Assembly (NCBI RefSeq): GCF_900109035.1
Contig: NZ_FNYD01000002.1
Coordinates: forward strand, 310,001-374,000
DNA: 64,000 nt
Direction of reading: 5' to 3'
Source: Cribrihabitans marinus
GTDB taxonomy: Bacteria > Pseudomonadota > Alphaproteobacteria > Rhodobacterales > Rhodobacteraceae
Positions 7,119-30,146 of this stretch are shown here, piece by piece (positions within the stretch are counted from its first letter, which is position 1; each line of letters opens with the position of its first letter). The notes beneath the pieces were generated by a model, which was not told the DNA's origin, did not search any database, and was given only the letters and a program-made list of their open reading frames with translations. The position numbers and the translations under genes were made by a program.

Positions 7119-8612
7119 GTGCAGGCAAAGGCACGTATCGCAACACCGGCGCAGGACGTATCCCACCACCGATTCAGGCTGGCGTGGCTGACGCTGCTGA
7201 GCGCGCTCTTCATCCTGGCGCAGGCCCTGGTCGCACAGGCCCGGCCCGAAAGCCTGGCGCCCCTGGCCGAACGGGTCAGCCCGGCGGTGGTCAACATCAC
7301 CACATCAACCCTGGTCGAGGGCCGTACCGGACCGCAGGGGATCGTGCCCGAGGGCTCGCCCTTCGAGGACTTCTTTCGCGAGTTTCAGGACCGCAACGGT
7401 AGCCCCGAGCAGCCGCGGCGCTCGTCCGCCCTGGGATCGGGATTCGTGATCTCCGAAGACGGCTATATCGTCACCAACAACCACGTGATCGACGGTGCCG
7501 ACGAGATCCGGATCGAGTTCTTTCCCGGCGACGGTCAGCCCACCGAACTGCCGGCCGAGGTGATCGGGACCGATCCCAAGACCGACATCGCGCTGTTGAA
7601 GGTCGAGGCGGAAAGGCCGCTGAAATTCGTCAGTTTCGGCGACAGCGACTCGGCGCGCGTCGGCGACTGGGTGATCGCGATGGGCAACCCGCTGGGCCAG
7701 GGGTTCTCGCTGTCCGTGGGCATCGTCTCGGCCCGGAACCGGGCGCTGAGCGGATCCTATGACGATTACATCCAGACCGACGCGGCCATCAACCGGGGCA
7801 ATTCCGGCGGGCCGCTGTTCAACATGGACGGCCAGGTGGTCGGCGTGAACACCGCGATCCTCAGCCCCAATGGCGGCTCGATCGGCATCGGGTTCTCGAT
7901 GGCGGCCAATGTCGTGACCAAGGTTGTCGACCAATTGCGCGAGTACGGCGAGACCCGCCGCGGCTGGCTGGGCGTGCGGATCCAGGATGTCACCCCCGAC
8001 GTCGCCGAGGCGATGGGGCTGGAGAAGGCCGAAGGCGCCCTGATCACGGATGTGCCGGACGGCCCCGCGAAAGAGGCGGGCCTGCTGTCGGGCGACGTGA
8101 TCGTCACCTTCGACGGCGCCGAGGTCACCGACACCCGCGCGCTGGTGCGCCAGGTCGGCGAAACCACCGTCGGCAAGGCGGTCCGGGTCGTCGTCTACCG
8201 CGACGGCAGCACCAAGACCATTCTGGTGACCTTGGGCCGGCGCGAGGATGCCGAGCGGGCCGAGAACGGCGATGCGGACGACAGCGACGAAAGCCCGGCG
8301 CCCGAGGCGACCGAGCAGAGTGTGCTTGGCCTGACGCTCAGCGCGCTGACCGACGAGACGCGCCAGCAGTTGGGGCTGGACGCCGCGGCCAACGGCCTTC
8401 TGGTCAAGGAGGTCGATGAAACCTCCGAAGCCTTCGAAAAGGGCCTGCGCCCCGGCGATCTGATCACCGAAGCGGGCCAGCAGGACGTGACGACACTGGC
8501 CGATCTGGACACCCGTATCGCAGAGGCGAAAGAGGCGGGGCGCAAGTCGCTGCTTCTCCTGGTGCGCCGCGAGGGTGAGCCACGCTTCGTGGCGCTCAGC
8601 CTCTCGGAGTGA
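7119..8612 (+). CDS. Do-family periplasmic serine endoprotease (DegP/DegQ/MucD-like)
   Basis: Envelope protease/chaperone of 497 aa that degrades or refolds misfolded periplasmic proteins. An N-terminal hydrophobic segment (about residues 20-40) acts as signal peptide. The trypsin-like domain carries an intact triad: His122 (NNHVIDG), Asp156 (KTDIALL) and Ser229 (GNSGGP). Two PDZ domains follow (about 275-370 and 405-495), joined by an acidic linker. I chose GTG 7119 because AAGGAGG lies about 8 nt upstream; an in-frame ATG at 7080 has no comparable RBS. It follows hflKC, making an envelope quality-control cluster. Confidence 0.95.
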   Translation: MQAKARIATPAQDVSHHRFRLAWLTLLSALFILAQALVAQARPESLAPLAERVSPAVVNITTSTLVEGRTGPQGIVPEGSPFEDFFREFQDRNGSPEQPRRSSALGSGFVISEDGYIVTNNHVIDGADEIRIEFFPGDGQPTELPAEVIGTDPKTDIALLKVEAERPLKFVSFGDSDSARVGDWVIAMGNPLGQGFSLSVGIVSARNRALSGSYDDYIQTDAAINRGNSGGPLFNMDGQVVGVNTAILSPNGGSIGIGFSMAANVVTKVVDQLREYGETRRGWLGVRIQDVTPDVAEAMGLEKAEGALITDVPDGPAKEAGLLSGDVIVTFDGAEVTDTRALVRQVGETTVGKAVRVVVYRDGSTKTILVTLGRREDAERAENGDADDSDESPAPEATEQSVLGLTLSALTDETRQQLGLDAAANGLLVKEVDETSEAFEKGLRPGDLITEAGQQDVTTLADLDTRIAEAKEAGRKSLLLLVRREGEPRFVALSLSE

Positions 8613-23985: not shown

Positions 23986-24313
23986 GCCGCGCGCTTTGCG
24001 CGGTTGACGTTGCGTGACCTGTCCGGGCCGCCGGTGTTTTGCACGTATGACCCGAATTCTCCGTTGTAGGCGGGAAATTGCCGCACCGCAGCAGAAAGGT
24101 GCTGCAACTGCGGAAACAATCAACATATGTTGACCGTGAGACGCATCGTTCATTCCGGCGGACTCCCCGCTCGTGGATGGATGCACCGAAAGGGCCCGCC
24201 ATGCGCGCCGCAGATCCCTGTCGCCCGAACGTGACCGCCATGTCGGCGGCGGGCACCGGCGTTGCATGGCCCTTCCGTCCCCCGTGGTCCGAATTCAGAG
24301 GAGCTGTTCCACA
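23986..24313. promoter_or_regulatory. 328-nt gene-free region with two dyad elements
   Basis: No convincing gene is present. It holds a TGC-rich interrupted palindrome, GCAGCA-N6-TGCTGC (24088-24093 and 24100-24105), followed by AACTGCGG. It also holds a perfect 14-bp palindrome, TCAACATATGTTGA (24120-24133). Both are 180-230 nt before the Lys/Ala-rich gene and could be operators for it. The TGC-rich dyad resembles the CTGC/GCAG-type target reported for the PHA regulator PhaR, but this is only suggestive. Confidence 0.5.
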
Positions 24314-25087
24314 ATGACCCCCATCACCAACCCGCTCGATTATCAGGCGGCGGCCCTGCGGTTTGCAGGCTACGCCTGGTCCAACCAGATCCGGATCGCC
24401 CAGATCCTGACCCGATCGGCCATCGAGGCGCCGATGCTGCAGGTGCACGCGCTGCATCGCGCGGCGGCCCAGCCCTATGGCTCGAAACCGGCCGGCAAGT
24501 CGACCCGCAAGGCCGCTGCGCCCAAGGCCAAGACGGCGGCCAGCCCGGTCAAACCGGCCGCCGCGCCCGCTACTGCGGCCAAGCCGGCCGCCAAGCCTAC
24601 TGCTGCGGCCAAACCAGCGGCCAAGAAGCCGGCTGCAACGGTCAAACCGGCCGAGACGCCCAAGCCGGCGGCGAAACCGGCAGCGGCCCGAAAGAGCCCG
24701 GCGCGCAAACGCCCCGCAGCCAAGCGCACGCCGGTCGCAGCGGCCACGAAACCCGCGGCCAAGGTCAATCCGGCGCCTTCAGCCGCGCCCAAGGCGGCCG
24801 AGCAGCCCAAGGCGCATGAGCCCAAGGCCAGCTCAGCCAAGGCCCCGGCGCAGAGCACGCCCCCCGCCGCGAAGGCGGAGGCACCGGCGGCCAAGCCGGC
24901 GGCTGCACCGGCAACCAAGCCGGCCGACGTCAGCCAGGCGCCGAAACCGGCCGTCCCGGACGCGCCGAAGTCTGCGGGCGCCGCGCCCAAGCCCGAGGCC
25001 ACGTCCGCCGCGCCGTCGCCGCGCCGGTCGCGCGCGCCGTCGATGCCCCCGGCCATGCCCGAAAGCAAGGCCAAGCTGGACAGCTGA
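24314..25087 (+). CDS. Lys/Ala/Pro-rich histone-H1-like protein with a short helical N-terminal domain
   Basis: A 257-aa protein. Residues 1-50 (MTPITNPLDYQAAALRFAGY then NQIRIAQILTRSAIEAPMLQ) look like an amphipathic helical domain. The remaining ~200 residues are low complexity, built from KPAAKPAA/KKPAA-type units, strongly basic up to about residue 160 and less so after. Such tails resemble AlgP/histone H1 and the DNA-binding tail of the PHB-granule protein PhaM. The helical head loosely resembles phasins. A nucleoid-binding or granule-associated role is inference. GAGGAG lies about 11 nt before the ATG. Upstream dyads are described separately. Confidence 0.7.
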   Translation: MTPITNPLDYQAAALRFAGYAWSNQIRIAQILTRSAIEAPMLQVHALHRAAAQPYGSKPAGKSTRKAAAPKAKTAASPVKPAAAPATAAKPAAKPTAAAKPAAKKPAATVKPAETPKPAAKPAAARKSPARKRPAAKRTPVAAATKPAAKVNPAPSAAPKAAEQPKAHEPKASSAKAPAQSTPPAAKAEAPAAKPAAAPATKPADVSQAPKPAVPDAPKSAGAAPKPEATSAAPSPRRSRAPSMPPAMPESKAKLDS

Positions 25088-25140: not shown

Positions 25141-26589
25141 ATGTTGGACCTGCGCCCCGTCGGATATGTCATCGGCCTGCTGGTCGCGCTTCTCGGCGCG
25201 ACCATGCTGCTGCCGCTGCTGGCGGACCTCGCAGAGGGGCGCGGCCAGTGGCCGGTTTTCCTTGAAAGCGGGATCCTCACCGTCCTGACCGGCGGGCTGA
25301 TGGCGCTGAGCTGCGCCAATGGCGTTCGCGAGGGCCTGACGATCCAGCAGACCTTTCTCGTCACGACGCTGGTCTGGCTGGCGCTGCCGGTCTTCGGTGC
25401 GCTGCCCTTCATGCTGGGCGAGACGCAGCTGCGTTTCGTCGATGCCTTCTTCGAGGCGATGTCGGGCCTGACAACAACCGGATCGACCGTGCTTTCGGGC
25501 CTGGAACACCTGCCGCGCGGGCTGCTCCTGTGGCGCGGGCTGCTGCAATGGCTGGGCGGCATCGGCATCATTGTCGTGGCGATGGTGTTCCTGCCGGAGC
25601 TGCGTGTCGGCGGGATGCAGATCTTTCGCTCGGAAGGATTCGACACGATGGGCAAGATCCTGCCCCGGGCGCAGCAGATCGCCGGGCAGATCTCGGTCAT
25701 CTACGTGGTCCTCACCGCCGTGTGCACGCTGGTCTACACCACCCTCGGCATGAGCTTCTTCGACGCTACGGTGCATGCCTTCACCACGATCGCGACCGGC
25801 GGGTTCTCGAACTACGATGCCTCATTCGGCACCTTCTCGGGGCCGGCGGAATATGCGGCCGCGGTCTTCATGATCCTCTCGGCGCTGCCCTTCGTGCGCT
25901 ACGTCCAGCTGGTGAACGGCAACACCCGACCGCTCTTTCAGGACAGCCAGATCCGGGCCTTCCTGATGGTGATCGGCGTCCTGGTGGGTGTGACCACCCT
26001 GGTCCTGATGTCGATCTTTCCGCACGATCTCGAACGGGCCTTTCGCGAGGCGCTGTTCAACATCACCTCGATCATCTCGGGCACCGGCTATGCCAGCGTC
26101 AACTACATGACCTGGGGCGGGTTCCTGATCACGATCTTCTTCTTCATCGGGCTGATTGGCGGGTGCGCCGGGTCGACCGCCTGCTCGGTCAAGATATTCC
26201 GCTATCAACTGCTGTTCGCCTCGATCAAGGCACAGATGCAGCTGATCCGCTCGCCGCATGGCGTGTTCACGCCGCGCTACAACGGACGGGCGGTGGGCCC
26301 GGATGTGCTGAATTCGGTGATCAGTTTCTTCGTCTTCTTCACGGTGACGCTGGGCATGTTCGCCTGGGCGCTGGCGCTGACCGGGCTGGATTTCGTCACC
26401 GCGCTGTCGGGGGCCGCCACGGCGCTCGCCAATGTCGGCCCCGGGCTGGGGGAGCGGATCGGGCCGTCAGGCAATTTCTCGGGGCTCAACGATCCGGCGA
26501 AATGGCTGCTCAGCGCGGCGATGCTGATCGGGCGGCTGGAGCTGTTCGCGGTCTACGTCATCCTGACCGTGCAATTCTGGCGGGCCTGA
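25141..26589 (+). CDS. trkH: TrkH-family potassium uptake protein
   Basis: Integral membrane subunit (482 aa) of a Trk-type K+ uptake system. The four pseudo-repeated selectivity-filter loops are visible in order: TTTGST, TIATGG, ISGTGY and NVGPG. About ten transmembrane segments surround them, with the gating-loop segment GCAGSTACSVKIFR after the third pore. Its usual cytosolic partner TrkA is not in the window. The ATG 25141 lies 53 nt after the Lys-rich gene. The downstream region has a hairpin shared with the convergent gene. Confidence 0.95.
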   Translation: MLDLRPVGYVIGLLVALLGATMLLPLLADLAEGRGQWPVFLESGILTVLTGGLMALSCANGVREGLTIQQTFLVTTLVWLALPVFGALPFMLGETQLRFVDAFFEAMSGLTTTGSTVLSGLEHLPRGLLLWRGLLQWLGGIGIIVVAMVFLPELRVGGMQIFRSEGFDTMGKILPRAQQIAGQISVIYVVLTAVCTLVYTTLGMSFFDATVHAFTTIATGGFSNYDASFGTFSGPAEYAAAVFMILSALPFVRYVQLVNGNTRPLFQDSQIRAFLMVIGVLVGVTTLVLMSIFPHDLERAFREALFNITSIISGTGYASVNYMTWGGFLITIFFFIGLIGGCAGSTACSVKIFRYQLLFASIKAQMQLIRSPHGVFTPRYNGRAVGPDVLNSVISFFVFFTVTLGMFAWALALTGLDFVTALSGAATALANVGPGLGERIGPSGNFSGLNDPAKWLLSAAMLIGRLELFAVYVILTVQFWRA

Positions 26590-26597
26590 CCGGTCAG

Positions 26598-26630
26598 AAA
26601 AAAAAACGCGCTCCGTTGCCGGAACGCGTC
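26598..26630 (-). terminator. Rho-independent terminator for the SPOR/protease-like gene
   Basis: A hairpin with ACGCG (26606-26610) pairing CGCGT (26625-26629) and inner TCCG-TTGC-CGGA. On the minus strand it is followed by a run of nine T (plus-strand A run 26598-26606). It serves transcripts from the minus-strand gene; in the plus direction only TCTTGT follows, so trkH termination would be weak. Confidence 0.75.
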
Positions 26631-26654
26631 TTGTCCAAGTTTCCTTTTGCAGGA

Positions 26655-28385
26655 TCAGTCCCAGCAGCTGACCAGCACCGTCATGCCCAGAGCGCGGCGG
26701 TCCAGCTCGTTGGGCGTGACATCGCCCTGCGTGCCGCTTTCGGTGGCGGTGATGCCCTTGGCGGCCAGCATCGCGCTCAGCGCGCCGGCATCCGCGGCCA
26801 GGCTGACCTCGTCCGGCAGTTTACGGTCGGCGCCGGGGTCGGGCAGCAACATGCCGACGACCGCGCCGCCGGTGTCCAGGACCGGCCCGCCGGCGTCACC
26901 GGACTGCGCGGCCAGCGCCAGCCGCTTGAGTTGCCGCTCGCCGTCCAGGCCCTGCAGGTCCGACACCGTGCCGAAGGTCAGCGTGGGTGCGCCCAGCCGC
27001 CCTTCGTAGGAATAGCCCGACACGGCCACGTCGGATTGCAGCCGCGGCTCGGCACCGCGCAACTCGGCGACAGCCATCGGCGCCAGCGGTTCCGTCGGCC
27101 GGAGCACGGCCACGCCGAGACCCGCATCCTCGTCGACCACCTCGGCCACATGGGTGCTGTCCAGCGTGATCCGGGCACAGCCGCGCACGGCCTCGGCGAC
27201 GGTGACGACCGTCCCGGCAGGGTCCACGAAAAAGCCCGAGCGCGACAGGCGCGGCTTGCGCAGCTTCAGTCCCGAAACCAGGTCGATATCCTTGGCCGCC
27301 GCCTCGCCCGCGCCGGGGTCGAGCACGCCGCCCAGACGCTCGAAGCTTGACTGCATCGCCGACAGGACGCGCGCCCGGCGCGCCTCGTCACCTTCGGGCC
27401 AGACCAGGGTGAACCCCTTGACGTGACCGTCCGCAACCGACGCCTCGGTATACGAGACGATGCCGTTGCCGCGACCCTCCAGGGTAAACCGGTCGCCGCG
27501 CCGCTCGCGCGGGCCGTTCAGCGGCACGATTTCCAGCGTCTGCATGATGTCATAGAGACCATGCAGCACCGCCCGGTCGCCCGGCTGGCTGATCAGCAAC
27601 ACGCGCGCACCCAGATCGCCACTGGCTTCGAAATGCGCAAAGGGCGGTTCGTACCGGTCGAAGGCCACCTCGCCCAGAGGCAGGTCGATTGCGATACCGG
27701 CCTGTGCATCTGTGTGGCGTGCCATTCCGACGCTGATCAGCGGCGCGTTGTACTCGTCCATCAGCGCCTTGCGCTGCGCCGTGGTCAGGATCCCGGTCGC
27801 CTCATAGCCTTTGGAGGCCTGCCATGCGGCCATGGACCGGCGTGTGCCGGCGCCGAAGGCCCCGTCGATCGCGGCGCCATAGAACCCCGCCGCCTGCAGC
27901 GCGGTCTGCAGATCGCGGCGTTCCTGCGCGGTCAGCAGACGCTCGCCGGCGCGGGCCTCGGCCGGTGTCTCGTCGGTCGGTTGCGGTGTGACCGGCTCGG
28001 CCGTCTCCTGTTCCGGCGTGGGCAGGGGCGAGGTCACGACGCCCCGATTCAGCGCATTGGCGCCAACCGGCCAGAACGGCTGCCGCAAGGCTCTGGAGAA
28101 GGTGATGAAACTGTCTGACGGGATCTGGCGCTCGGCGCGATAGACCTGCAGCACGCGCTCTGCGTCGGGGCGGGAATAGGGACCGAGGACGATGCCATAC
28201 CAGCCGTTGCCCAGGGAAAACCCGTGCACATCCGCCAGCGCACCGGAGTAGATGCGCGCGCGATCCTGCGCTTCGGCCAGCGAATTGTGCGCCTCGATCT
28301 GGACCCAGGCCTCCTGCTGCTGGGCCGAGGCGCTGTGCGCCAGCCAGGTGAGCGCCAGACAGGCCGCCAGGAATACTCTGATCAT
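26655..28385 (-). CDS. Secreted SPOR + peptidoglycan-binding protein with degenerate trypsin-like domain
   Basis: A 576-aa exported protein. Signal peptide (residues 1-21); SPOR-like domain (about 24-95, VQIEAHNSLAEAQDRARIYS...YGIVLGPYSR) that may bind denuded septal glycan; PG_binding_1 domain (about 150-210, LQTALQAAGFYGAAIDGAFGAGTRRSM); a central domain; and a C-terminal trypsin/HtrA-like fold (about 385-560). The catalytic residues seem lost: the expected His region reads TVVTVAEAV, the Asp region GLGVAVL, and the nucleophile motif is GDAGGP with Ala498 instead of Ser. It is therefore probably a pseudoprotease acting as a binding module. Divergent from glyQ; a good terminator follows. Confidence 0.82.
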   Translation of the reverse strand: MIRVFLAACLALTWLAHSASAQQQEAWVQIEAHNSLAEAQDRARIYSGALADVHGFSLGNGWYGIVLGPYSRPDAERVLQVYRAERQIPSDSFITFSRALRQPFWPVGANALNRGVVTSPLPTPEQETAEPVTPQPTDETPAEARAGERLLTAQERRDLQTALQAAGFYGAAIDGAFGAGTRRSMAAWQASKGYEATGILTTAQRKALMDEYNAPLISVGMARHTDAQAGIAIDLPLGEVAFDRYEPPFAHFEASGDLGARVLLISQPGDRAVLHGLYDIMQTLEIVPLNGPRERRGDRFTLEGRGNGIVSYTEASVADGHVKGFTLVWPEGDEARRARVLSAMQSSFERLGGVLDPGAGEAAAKDIDLVSGLKLRKPRLSRSGFFVDPAGTVVTVAEAVRGCARITLDSTHVAEVVDEDAGLGVAVLRPTEPLAPMAVAELRGAEPRLQSDVAVSGYSYEGRLGAPTLTFGTVSDLQGLDGERQLKRLALAAQSGDAGGPVLDTGGAVVGMLLPDPGADRKLPDEVSLAADAGALSAMLAAKGITATESGTQGDVTPNELDRRALGMTVLVSCWD

Positions 28386-28597
28386 CTGTAATATCTCTGT
28401 GTTTCGAATTGGGGTTTTCGCCAGTCATTAAGCAGGAAACGTAAAGAAGTTCCATGCCCGCCCCGCAACGGCCCGGGCGGTGTGTCGATATCACGACAGG
28501 GTCGCCCCGGTTGCAGGCCGCACCCGTGTTGACGCCCCACGGCGCCTTGCCTAGGAAGAGGCGGCAAGGACCAACCCGGCCCGCGAAAGGCCCAGCC

Positions 28598-29530
28598 ATG
28601 ACCGACACGACACCGCAGACGCCGCGCTCGTTCCAGGAGATCATCCTGCGGCTTCAGAGCTATTGGGGGGCCAAGGGCTGCGCCATCCTGCAACCCTATG
28701 ACATGGAGGTGGGTGCCGGCACCTTCCACCCGGCCACGACGCTGCGCGCGCTGGGCTCGCGCCCCTGGGCCGCGGCCTATGTGCAGCCATCGCGCCGACC
28801 AACGGACGGGCGCTATGGCGAGAACCCCAACCGGCTGCAGCACTATTACCAGTACCAGGTGCTGATCAAACCCAGCCCGCCCGATCTGCAGCAGCTGTAT
28901 CTGGGCTCGCTACAGGCCATCGGCATCGACATGGAGCTGCATGACATCCGCTTTGTCGAGGATGACTGGGAAAGCCCCACTCTGGGCGCCTGGGGCCTGG
29001 GTTGGGAGGTCTGGTGCGACGGCATGGAGGTCAGCCAGTTCACCTATTTCCAGCAGGTCGGCGGGCATGACTGCCACCCCGTCTCGGGCGAGCTGACCTA
29101 TGGGCTGGAGCGGCTGGCGATGTATGTGCTGGGCATCGACCATGTGATGGACATGCCGTTCAACGACCCCGATGCGCCGATCCCGCTCAGCTATGGCGAC
29201 GTGTTCCGCCAGACCGAGGAGGAATACGCGCGCTACAATTTCGACACCGCGAATACCGAGGTGCTGCTGCGCCATTTCGAGGAGGCCGAGGCGGAGTGCG
29301 AGCACCTGCTGGCGCAGGACGACACCGATCCCAAGACCGGCAAGCACATCATCATGGCGCATCCCGCCTATGACCAGTGCATCAAGGCGAGCCACATCTT
29401 CAACCTGCTGGATGCCCGTGGCGTGATCTCGGTGACCGAGCGGCAGGCCTATATCGGTCGGGTCCGCGCGCTTGCGAAACGCTGTGCGGACGCCTTCGTG
29501 CGCACCGAGGCCGGCGGGCAGGCGGCCTGA
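28598..29530 (+). CDS. glyQ: Glycine-tRNA ligase alpha subunit
   Basis: Catalytic subunit (310 aa) of the bacterial alpha2beta2 glycyl-tRNA synthetase. It starts [20 protein letters not shown] and contains [40 protein letters not shown] and [20 protein letters not shown], all class II signature regions of GlyQ. GAAAGG precedes ATG 28598. The frame is open upstream to 28454 without family similarity. It heads a gene group glyQ-DUF6446-glyS. The first 2 nt of the next short frame overlap its stop (TGATGG). Confidence 0.97.
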
Positions 29531-29615
29531 TGGCGCGCGTCGGACCGGCCCGAAGCGGGCAAAGGGGCAACCGGGTGGGCCGCCAGGCCGCGCAGGTTTC
29601 CGCCGGAGCCGCGGC

Positions 29616-30146
29616 ATGAGCGGCAAGATCCTGGCCATGATCGTTCTCGTTTCGGCGGCAATCGCCGGCGGGGCGCTCTATTATTTCCAGATCTACGGCT
29701 ACTACTACGATGTCGCGGCGCAGCCGGGGCGCGACGTGATGCTGCTGCCGCAAGACGCCGAGGCGCCCGAACCCATCACCTATTCCGAGTTCCGCGCCAT
29801 CGACGCCGACAGCTCGCCGATCCGCTATCGCGCCTGTTTCGAGACCGAGGCCGCGCCGGAGGCGCTGGCTGCGACCTACATGCCCGCCGAGGCGCCCGAG
29901 CCGCTGACCGCGCCGGGCTGGTTCGACTGCTTCGACGCGGTGGCGCTGGCCGATGACCTGGCCGCCGGACGGGCGCGGGCCTTCATCGGGCAGAAGAACG
30001 TGCATTTCGGCGTCGACCGGATCGTGGCCGTAACCGCCGACGGGCGCGGCTATGCCTGGAATGCGCTGAACAATTGCGGCCGCAAAACCTATGACGGCAC
30101 CCAGGTGGGCGAGGATTGTCCGCCGCGCCCGACCGCCGGTCAATGA
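29616..30146 (+). CDS. DUF6446 family membrane-anchored protein
   Basis: A 176-aa protein with an N-terminal membrane anchor (MSGKILAMIVLVSAAIAGGALYYF is residues 1-24, split here only for description). Its outer domain has FRAIDADSSPIRYRACFET, LTAPGWFDCFDA and a C-terminal cysteine pair, the layout of DUF6446, a Rhodobacterales family of unknown function usually found between glyQ and glyS. ATG 29616 overlaps the stop of a 29-codon frame that itself begins at the glyQ stop. The cysteines suggest an extracytoplasmic, disulfide-bonded domain. Why it sits with tRNA synthetase genes is unknown. Confidence 0.8.
   Translation: MSGKILAMIVLVSAAIAGGALYYFQIYGYYYDVAAQPGRDVMLLPQDAEAPEPITYSEFRAIDADSSPIRYRACFETEAAPEALAATYMPAEAPEPLTAPGWFDCFDAVALADDLAAGRARAFIGQKNVHFGVDRIVAVTADGRGYAWNALNNCGRKTYDGTQVGEDCPPRPTAGQ

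Follow-up and report, generated by a model that had tools for sequence, protein, structure and literature searches.

A putative peptidoglycan-targeted pseudoprotease of trypsin/HtrA fold, widely conserved beside glyQ in a bacterial family

The window (the whole stretch of 64,000 nucleotides of Cribrihabitans marinus DNA that was analyzed) encodes a protein in which a trypsin-like domain without its catalytic triad is joined to domains of peptidoglycan-binding families. We consider it probable that this protein is a periplasmic, peptidoglycan-targeted pseudoprotease that serves cell-wall remodelling non-catalytically, as an adaptor or regulator. The alignment of orthologues gives good support for the loss of serine-protease chemistry, and the protein is expected to be inactive in vitro. 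A narrower version of this reading, that of a family-specific, peptidoglycan-anchored protein of single origin whose dead trypsin cleft holds and regulates a cell-wall hydrolase or protease, is put forward only tentatively. The gene, its neighbours and the domains of its product are located as follows.

26655..28385, minus strand: whole pseudoprotease gene, with an ATG start and 576 codons plus stop (576 aa)
26603..26632, minus strand: terminator-like hairpin, a 13-pair stem with a T-run 23 bases after the stop codon; such hairpins are not more numerous in the region than in shuffles, and its position is its sole support
28595..29530, plus strand: glyQ, the divergent neighbour that marks the orthologous locus
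25141..26589, plus strand: convergent neighbour, presumably a TrkH-type transporter gene (named from its sequence and from knowledge of the family), adjacent or near in many orthologous loci
28320..28385, minus strand: probable Sec signal peptide, residues 1-22, a hydrophobic run ending in SASA-Q
28107..28307, minus strand: SPOR domain, residues 27-93 (Pfam)
27762..27929, minus strand: PG_binding_1 domain, residues 153-208 (Pfam)
27330..27752, minus strand: PsbP/Mog1-like alpha-beta domain, residues 212-352 (AlphaFold2 and fold match)
26748..27248, minus strand: degenerate trypsin/HtrA-fold domain, residues 380-546 (Pfam Trypsin_2 and fold match)

Full-length orthologues align with the window protein over residues 1-576. 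A preliminary description of this DNA had proposed that SPOR, PG_binding_1 and trypsin-like domains are joined here, and this was confirmed by three Pfam matches, all above the gathering score: SPOR at residues 27-93 (E=6.6e-5, 23.6 bits versus 21), PG_binding_1 (PF01471) at residues 153-208 (E=2.3e-11, 44.2 bits versus 23), and Trypsin_2 (PF13365) at residues 383-512 (E=1.4e-14, 55.5 bits versus 27.6). Both trypsin-like strand motifs quoted in that description are present in the protein. The SPOR match of one orthologue (L009) reached 22.3 bits against the gathering score of 21, and no SPOR structure was found when the SPOR sequence alone was used as a phmmer query. Glycan binding by FtsN involves residues Q251, W283, and R285 (PMC6895207). 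By motif position, Gln29 stands at the Q251 position, and Trp62 aligns with W283 in a weak match (E 0.12); at the R285 position the Arg is not kept and Gly/Ala is found. Overall, two of the five FtsN localisation residues appear to be retained. Among 82 orthologues, Q29 and W62 are conserved at 98% and 95%, as are Ala21 (99%) and Gln22 (95%) in the signal-peptide region. SPOR domains recognise peptide-free glycan, which is enriched at the septum (PMC6895207). Given its SPOR and PG_binding_1 domains, the protein is expected on peptidoglycan, and the cell-wall placement suggested in the preliminary description gains support from the fact that both belong to families known to bind it. Export and peptidoglycan binding are thus predicted, and a septal site would be indicated by the SPOR domain alone.

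An AlphaFold2 run on 33 sequences (from the window and genome contigs) gave a mean pLDDT of 83. The C-terminal domain is predicted to adopt a trypsin/HtrA fold: its model matched DegS (2qf0) with a VIA Z of 19.5 over 162 aligned residues at 2.5 A, and the MarP structure 3lt3 ranked top in Foldseek. Since fold searches with the whole model returned the trypsin domain only, the middle region (residues 212-354) was folded separately, which gave a pLDDT of 93.6. This model matched PsbP (2vu4) with a VIA Z of 12.2 over 130 of 143 residues (3.3 A, 12% identity) and a Foldseek E of 2e-5, while Mog1, DcrB, and Tsi3 were also listed among the fold matches, ranked below 2vu4. A Pfam search of residues 212-352 gave no match. 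The models therefore point to a previously unrecognised domain of PsbP/Mog1 fold, a shared fold that does not tell function. This domain had escaped the preliminary description, as had the synteny with glyQ, the conservation across the bacterial family, and the existence of the active sister family described below.

The former catalytic residues, placed by alignment with MarP and the HtrA protease of the window, and two invariant cysteines are found at the following positions.

27192..27194, minus strand: Glu398, at the catalytic His position
27114..27116, minus strand: Gly424, at the catalytic Asp position
26892..26894, minus strand: Ala498, at the catalytic Ser position (GDAGGP)
27177..27179, minus strand: Cys403, invariant (82/82 and 60/60 orthologues; also present in active relatives)
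26664..26666, minus strand: Cys574, invariant, near the C-terminus (82/82 and 60/60 orthologues)

The triad columns were fixed both by phmmer alignment to MarP structures and by a joint MAFFT alignment with MarP and the window HtrA, and the two agree on Glu398, Gly424, and Ala498, in line with the earlier claim of a non-catalytic triad with Ala498 at the nucleophile. The His-Asp-Ser triad that is the criterion for a catalytic S1 serine peptidase is therefore absent from the window protein. Across the 82 orthologues the His column contained E53 D10 A8 Q5 R2 G2 K1 M1, the Asp column G77 D2 N1 P1 and one gap, and the Ser column A65 V7 S2 T2 F2 I2 E1 G1. The corresponding counts in 60 further orthologues were E31 D16 Q6 A6 S1, G60, and A49 V6 T4 S1 (142 sequences in total, with 3-4 of the 60 repeating genomes of the 82-sequence set). 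His at the catalytic position was found in 0/142 orthologue sequences, and 0/142 kept more than one triad residue. No column of the trypsin domain exceeded 20% His in the 82-sequence set, by which an intact triad at shifted positions was ruled out. Orthologues with an intact triad aligned at shifted positions were one outcome that the preliminary description had named as evidence against its pseudoprotease reading. None of the aligned orthologues has an intact triad, at the same or at shifted positions, and that reading is accordingly supported at the level of sequence; every detail of the description that was checked proved correct.

The remainder of the trypsin-like scaffold has been retained. 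The former nucleophile loop still reads G-D-x-G-G-P (G496 91%, D497 98%, G499 100%, G500 98%, and P501 96%), G384, T395, and G457 vary little or not at all, and Cys403 and Cys574 likely form a disulfide joining the C-terminus to the trypsin-like domain. A dead cleft within a preserved scaffold suggests binding without cutting. Median dN/dS values of 65 pairs (Nei-Gojobori, Ruegeria and neighbours) were 0.18 for the whole protein, 0.105 for PG_binding_1, 0.13 for SPOR, 0.19 for the middle domain, and 0.28 for the pseudoprotease domain. Purifying selection thus acts on the protein and is weakest in the dead trypsin-like domain. Decay into a pseudogene was ruled out by the open frames of the orthologues and by dN/dS below 0.3. 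One copy from a Ruegeria MAG (L082, 813-2681) matches up to residue 512 only and then diverges, probably through a frameshift or an assembly error.

A match at E 1e-30 or better was carried by 338 of 395 sampled genera of the bacterial family, with ~14% of sampled genera lacking a strong match, and profile matches were obtained in 278/293 genomes of a second draw, some of them partial (e.g., genus g24). In almost all orthologous loci, glyQ lies beside the gene in divergent orientation. Where a full-length copy was missing, 13/16 loci showed no gene remnants upstream of glyQ, and 3/16 had truncated copies beside it. Among 289 genomes of the class, the full-length architecture was not found outside the family; matches there covered the trypsin part only, or separately the PG-binding or middle part. 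Occurrence of the same architecture beyond the family was rejected for these genomes, their full-length matches coming from its own members only. In a tree of 87 trypsin domains, 65 degenerate domains were split from 22 with H-D-S by one branch with 100/100 support, the HtrA proteases falling on the H-D-S side; branches were long in some rows (L052 and L053). If the root is placed among the active enzymes, this split amounts to one loss, and the sequences fit a single ancestral loss of the triad. In four genomes of genus g24 that were inspected, trkH and glyQ flank a version of the gene in which SPOR and the middle domain, usually together with the PG-binding domain, are retained and the trypsin-like domain is missing:

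L063, beside glyQ, minus strand: genus g24 version without the trypsin-like domain
L133, L135, and L137, upstream of glyQ: genus g24 versions without the trypsin-like domain

Together with the genera that have no strong match, this deletion implies that the trypsin-like domain is not indispensable.

Active relatives of the window protein were also recovered. Like the window protein, a sister family (L054, L055, L059, and L146-L151) combines a PG-binding-like region with a PsbP-like middle domain (hhalign probability 98, E 1.5e-12 over the PG-binding and middle regions) and both cysteines in its trypsin domain. Unlike the window protein, it has an intact H-D-S triad and a GNSGGP loop, and its genes are not beside glyQ where tested. 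The N-terminus of L054 appears SPOR-like by eye and has no Pfam match. Full-length matches to the sister family occur in ~14/198 genera, patchily within the bacterial family, and none was found in the genome of the window. A pattern like that of MamE/MamO, in which the pseudoprotease would be paired with an active sister encoded by its own genome, was rejected on these grounds: since the window genome and most genera are without a sister, the pseudoprotease would have no obligate partner in that family. Other active Trypsin_2 proteins of HtrA types are present despite the missing sister. One of these lies in the window itself, where the preliminary description had rightly noted a strong Do protease (TIGR02037, 467.9 bits versus a cut-off of 416.2, intact triad):

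7119-8612: complete Do-family protease with two PDZ domains and a GTG start

Several known systems come closest to the protein, each with differences. The Do/HtrA proteases (DegP, DegQ, DegS, and that of the window) have a protease-domain fold in common with it (Z 18-19.5), but it lacks both a PDZ match and the triad, and scores 12.4 bits against the TIGR02037 cut-off of 416.2. MarP (Rv3671c; 3k6y and 3lt3), the best PDB sequence match of the trypsin domain (E 9e-5), is likewise a periplasmic trypsin-fold protein (export of the window protein being predicted) and is tied to peptidoglycan remodelling through RipA cleavage (PMC6628586). However, MarP is proteolytically active and carries four membrane helices at its N-terminus, and the window protein scores 32.7 against the 250 bits of the MarP cut-off (NF033740). 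MamO, a magnetosome trypsin-fold pseudoprotease of the Trypsin_2/HtrA clade in alphaproteobacteria that activates another protease and binds metal (PMC4794232), resembles the window protein in its trypsin fold, in its degenerate triad, and in its conservation as a clade. Its non-catalytic function has been shown experimentally (PMC4794232), whereas that of the window protein is deduced from sequence. MamO pseudoproteases are recognised by a residue other than Gly193 and a di-histidine metal site (PMC4794232), and the window family departs from both criteria: Gly496 (position 193) is kept in 91% and there is no conserved His. MamO also differs in its magnetosome role, and the trypsin-like domain is partnered here with SPOR, PG_binding_1, and a PsbP-like domain. 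In RsgI9 of Clostridium thermocellum, a protease-like S1C domain has been reported to bind cellulose (PMC12203970). Its S1C-NTF2 ectodomain (7sjy) is a fold match to the trypsin part of the window protein (Z 17.8, 159 aligned, 2.5 A), and in both cases a protease-like domain sits in an envelope protein, that of RsgI9 being used for binding; RsgI9 differs in being an anti-sigma factor, from a Gram-positive organism that degrades cellulose, and in carrying NTF2 instead of SPOR/PG_binding_1. MamO and RsgI9 can serve as precedents, MamO being an alphaproteobacterial case of a trypsin-fold pseudoprotease put to a new use.

On this basis, we propose that the protein would be exported to the periplasm and held on peptidoglycan by SPOR and PG_binding_1, where it could present two non-enzymatic folds, the PsbP/Mog1-like domain and the trypsin-fold pseudoprotease, to partner proteins. 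The pseudoprotease may descend from an active protease with this architecture that lost His, Asp, and Ser once, in an ancestor, and purifying selection since then would mean that the scaffold still binds a target that it leaves uncut, be it a peptide, a partner protease, or an enzyme of the cell wall. Its most likely role would be to regulate the remodelling of peptidoglycan or to act in it as an adaptor; that the dead cleft binds a ligand is presumed from these features, as are the adaptor and remodelling roles. Several findings count against it: evolution is faster in the pseudoprotease domain than in PG_binding_1 and SPOR, different residues occupy the former catalytic positions in different orthologues, and the trypsin-like domain has been dispensed with in genus g24, as has a strong match in the genera noted above. 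Catalytically dead amidase-type activators are the usual example of non-enzymatic regulators in peptidoglycan remodelling, and they would be analogous regulators, the window protein being built on a protease fold instead.

Next in our ranking stands the possibility that the dead trypsin domain is a carbohydrate- or peptidoglycan-binding module, which would make the protein a multivalent wall-binding protein without a partner protein. The cellulose binding reported for the protease-like domain of RsgI9 (PMC12203970), whose structure 7sjy is among the fold matches, speaks for it, as does the fact that the remaining domains already belong to wall-binding families; however, 7sjy matched no better than ordinary HtrA proteases did, and we regard this explanation as unlikely. 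Slightly lower in rank, and also improbable, is the view of the trypsin-like domain as a structural relic needed for folding or spacing, with function residing in the SPOR, PG-binding, and PsbP-like domains. It would account for the highest dN/dS among the folded domains (0.28 versus 0.105-0.19) and for the g24 lineage, in which this domain has gone and the rest stays. Yet purifying selection on the domain persists in ~100 genera, and GD-x-GGP, G384, T395, and Cys403/Cys574 are conserved at 90-100%, beyond the needs of spacing.

Enzymatic activity of the domain appears far less probable than either. New catalytic chemistry in the old cleft, e.g., through Glu398, might be read from the acidic residue present at the His position in 63/82 and 47/60 orthologues, but the same position also holds A, Q, R, G, K, M, or S, and, the likely disulfide pair aside, a catalytic site is not clearly marked by any further conserved acid, His, or Cys; we give this very little credence. 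Least probable of all is weak serine-protease activity that persists through a rearranged active site: the trypsin fold and the oxyanion-loop glycines are kept, but there is no conserved His anywhere, and Ser and Asp remain in just 3/142 and 2/142 sequences, respectively. The adaptor or regulator reading thus stays the most likely one.

To our knowledge, few bacterial pseudoproteases have a known role, and MamO was the clearest precedent that we found. What is new here is a widely conserved variant, bacterial trypsin-fold pseudoproteases as such being already known. It is found almost throughout a large family of ecological importance and occupies a fixed locus. As an active sister family exists and one lineage has deleted the domain, the successive states of enzyme, non-enzyme, and loss can be compared, and if the protein truly regulates the remodelling of peptidoglycan, the field would gain a regulator of protease fold. 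Annotation of such genes as serine proteases is likely and would mislead. A literature search for this pseudoprotease family found no paper, and none of the PG-binding genes of Rhodobacter sphaeroides in the CenKR paper was matched to the glyQ-adjacent locus.

Several further observations concern the surroundings of the gene. The same genome encodes another Trypsin_2 protein (L099, G000:C22:453123-453593) of 552 aa, which has a transmembrane stretch and whose triad appears intact. At 24173-25087 of the window, a short ordinary N-terminus is followed by a long Ala/Lys/Pro-rich tail resembling histone H1. Finally, a small uncharacterised protein, probably anchored in the membrane, is encoded between glyQ and glyS (29615-30146), and tblastn placed it near glyQ in most orthologous loci.
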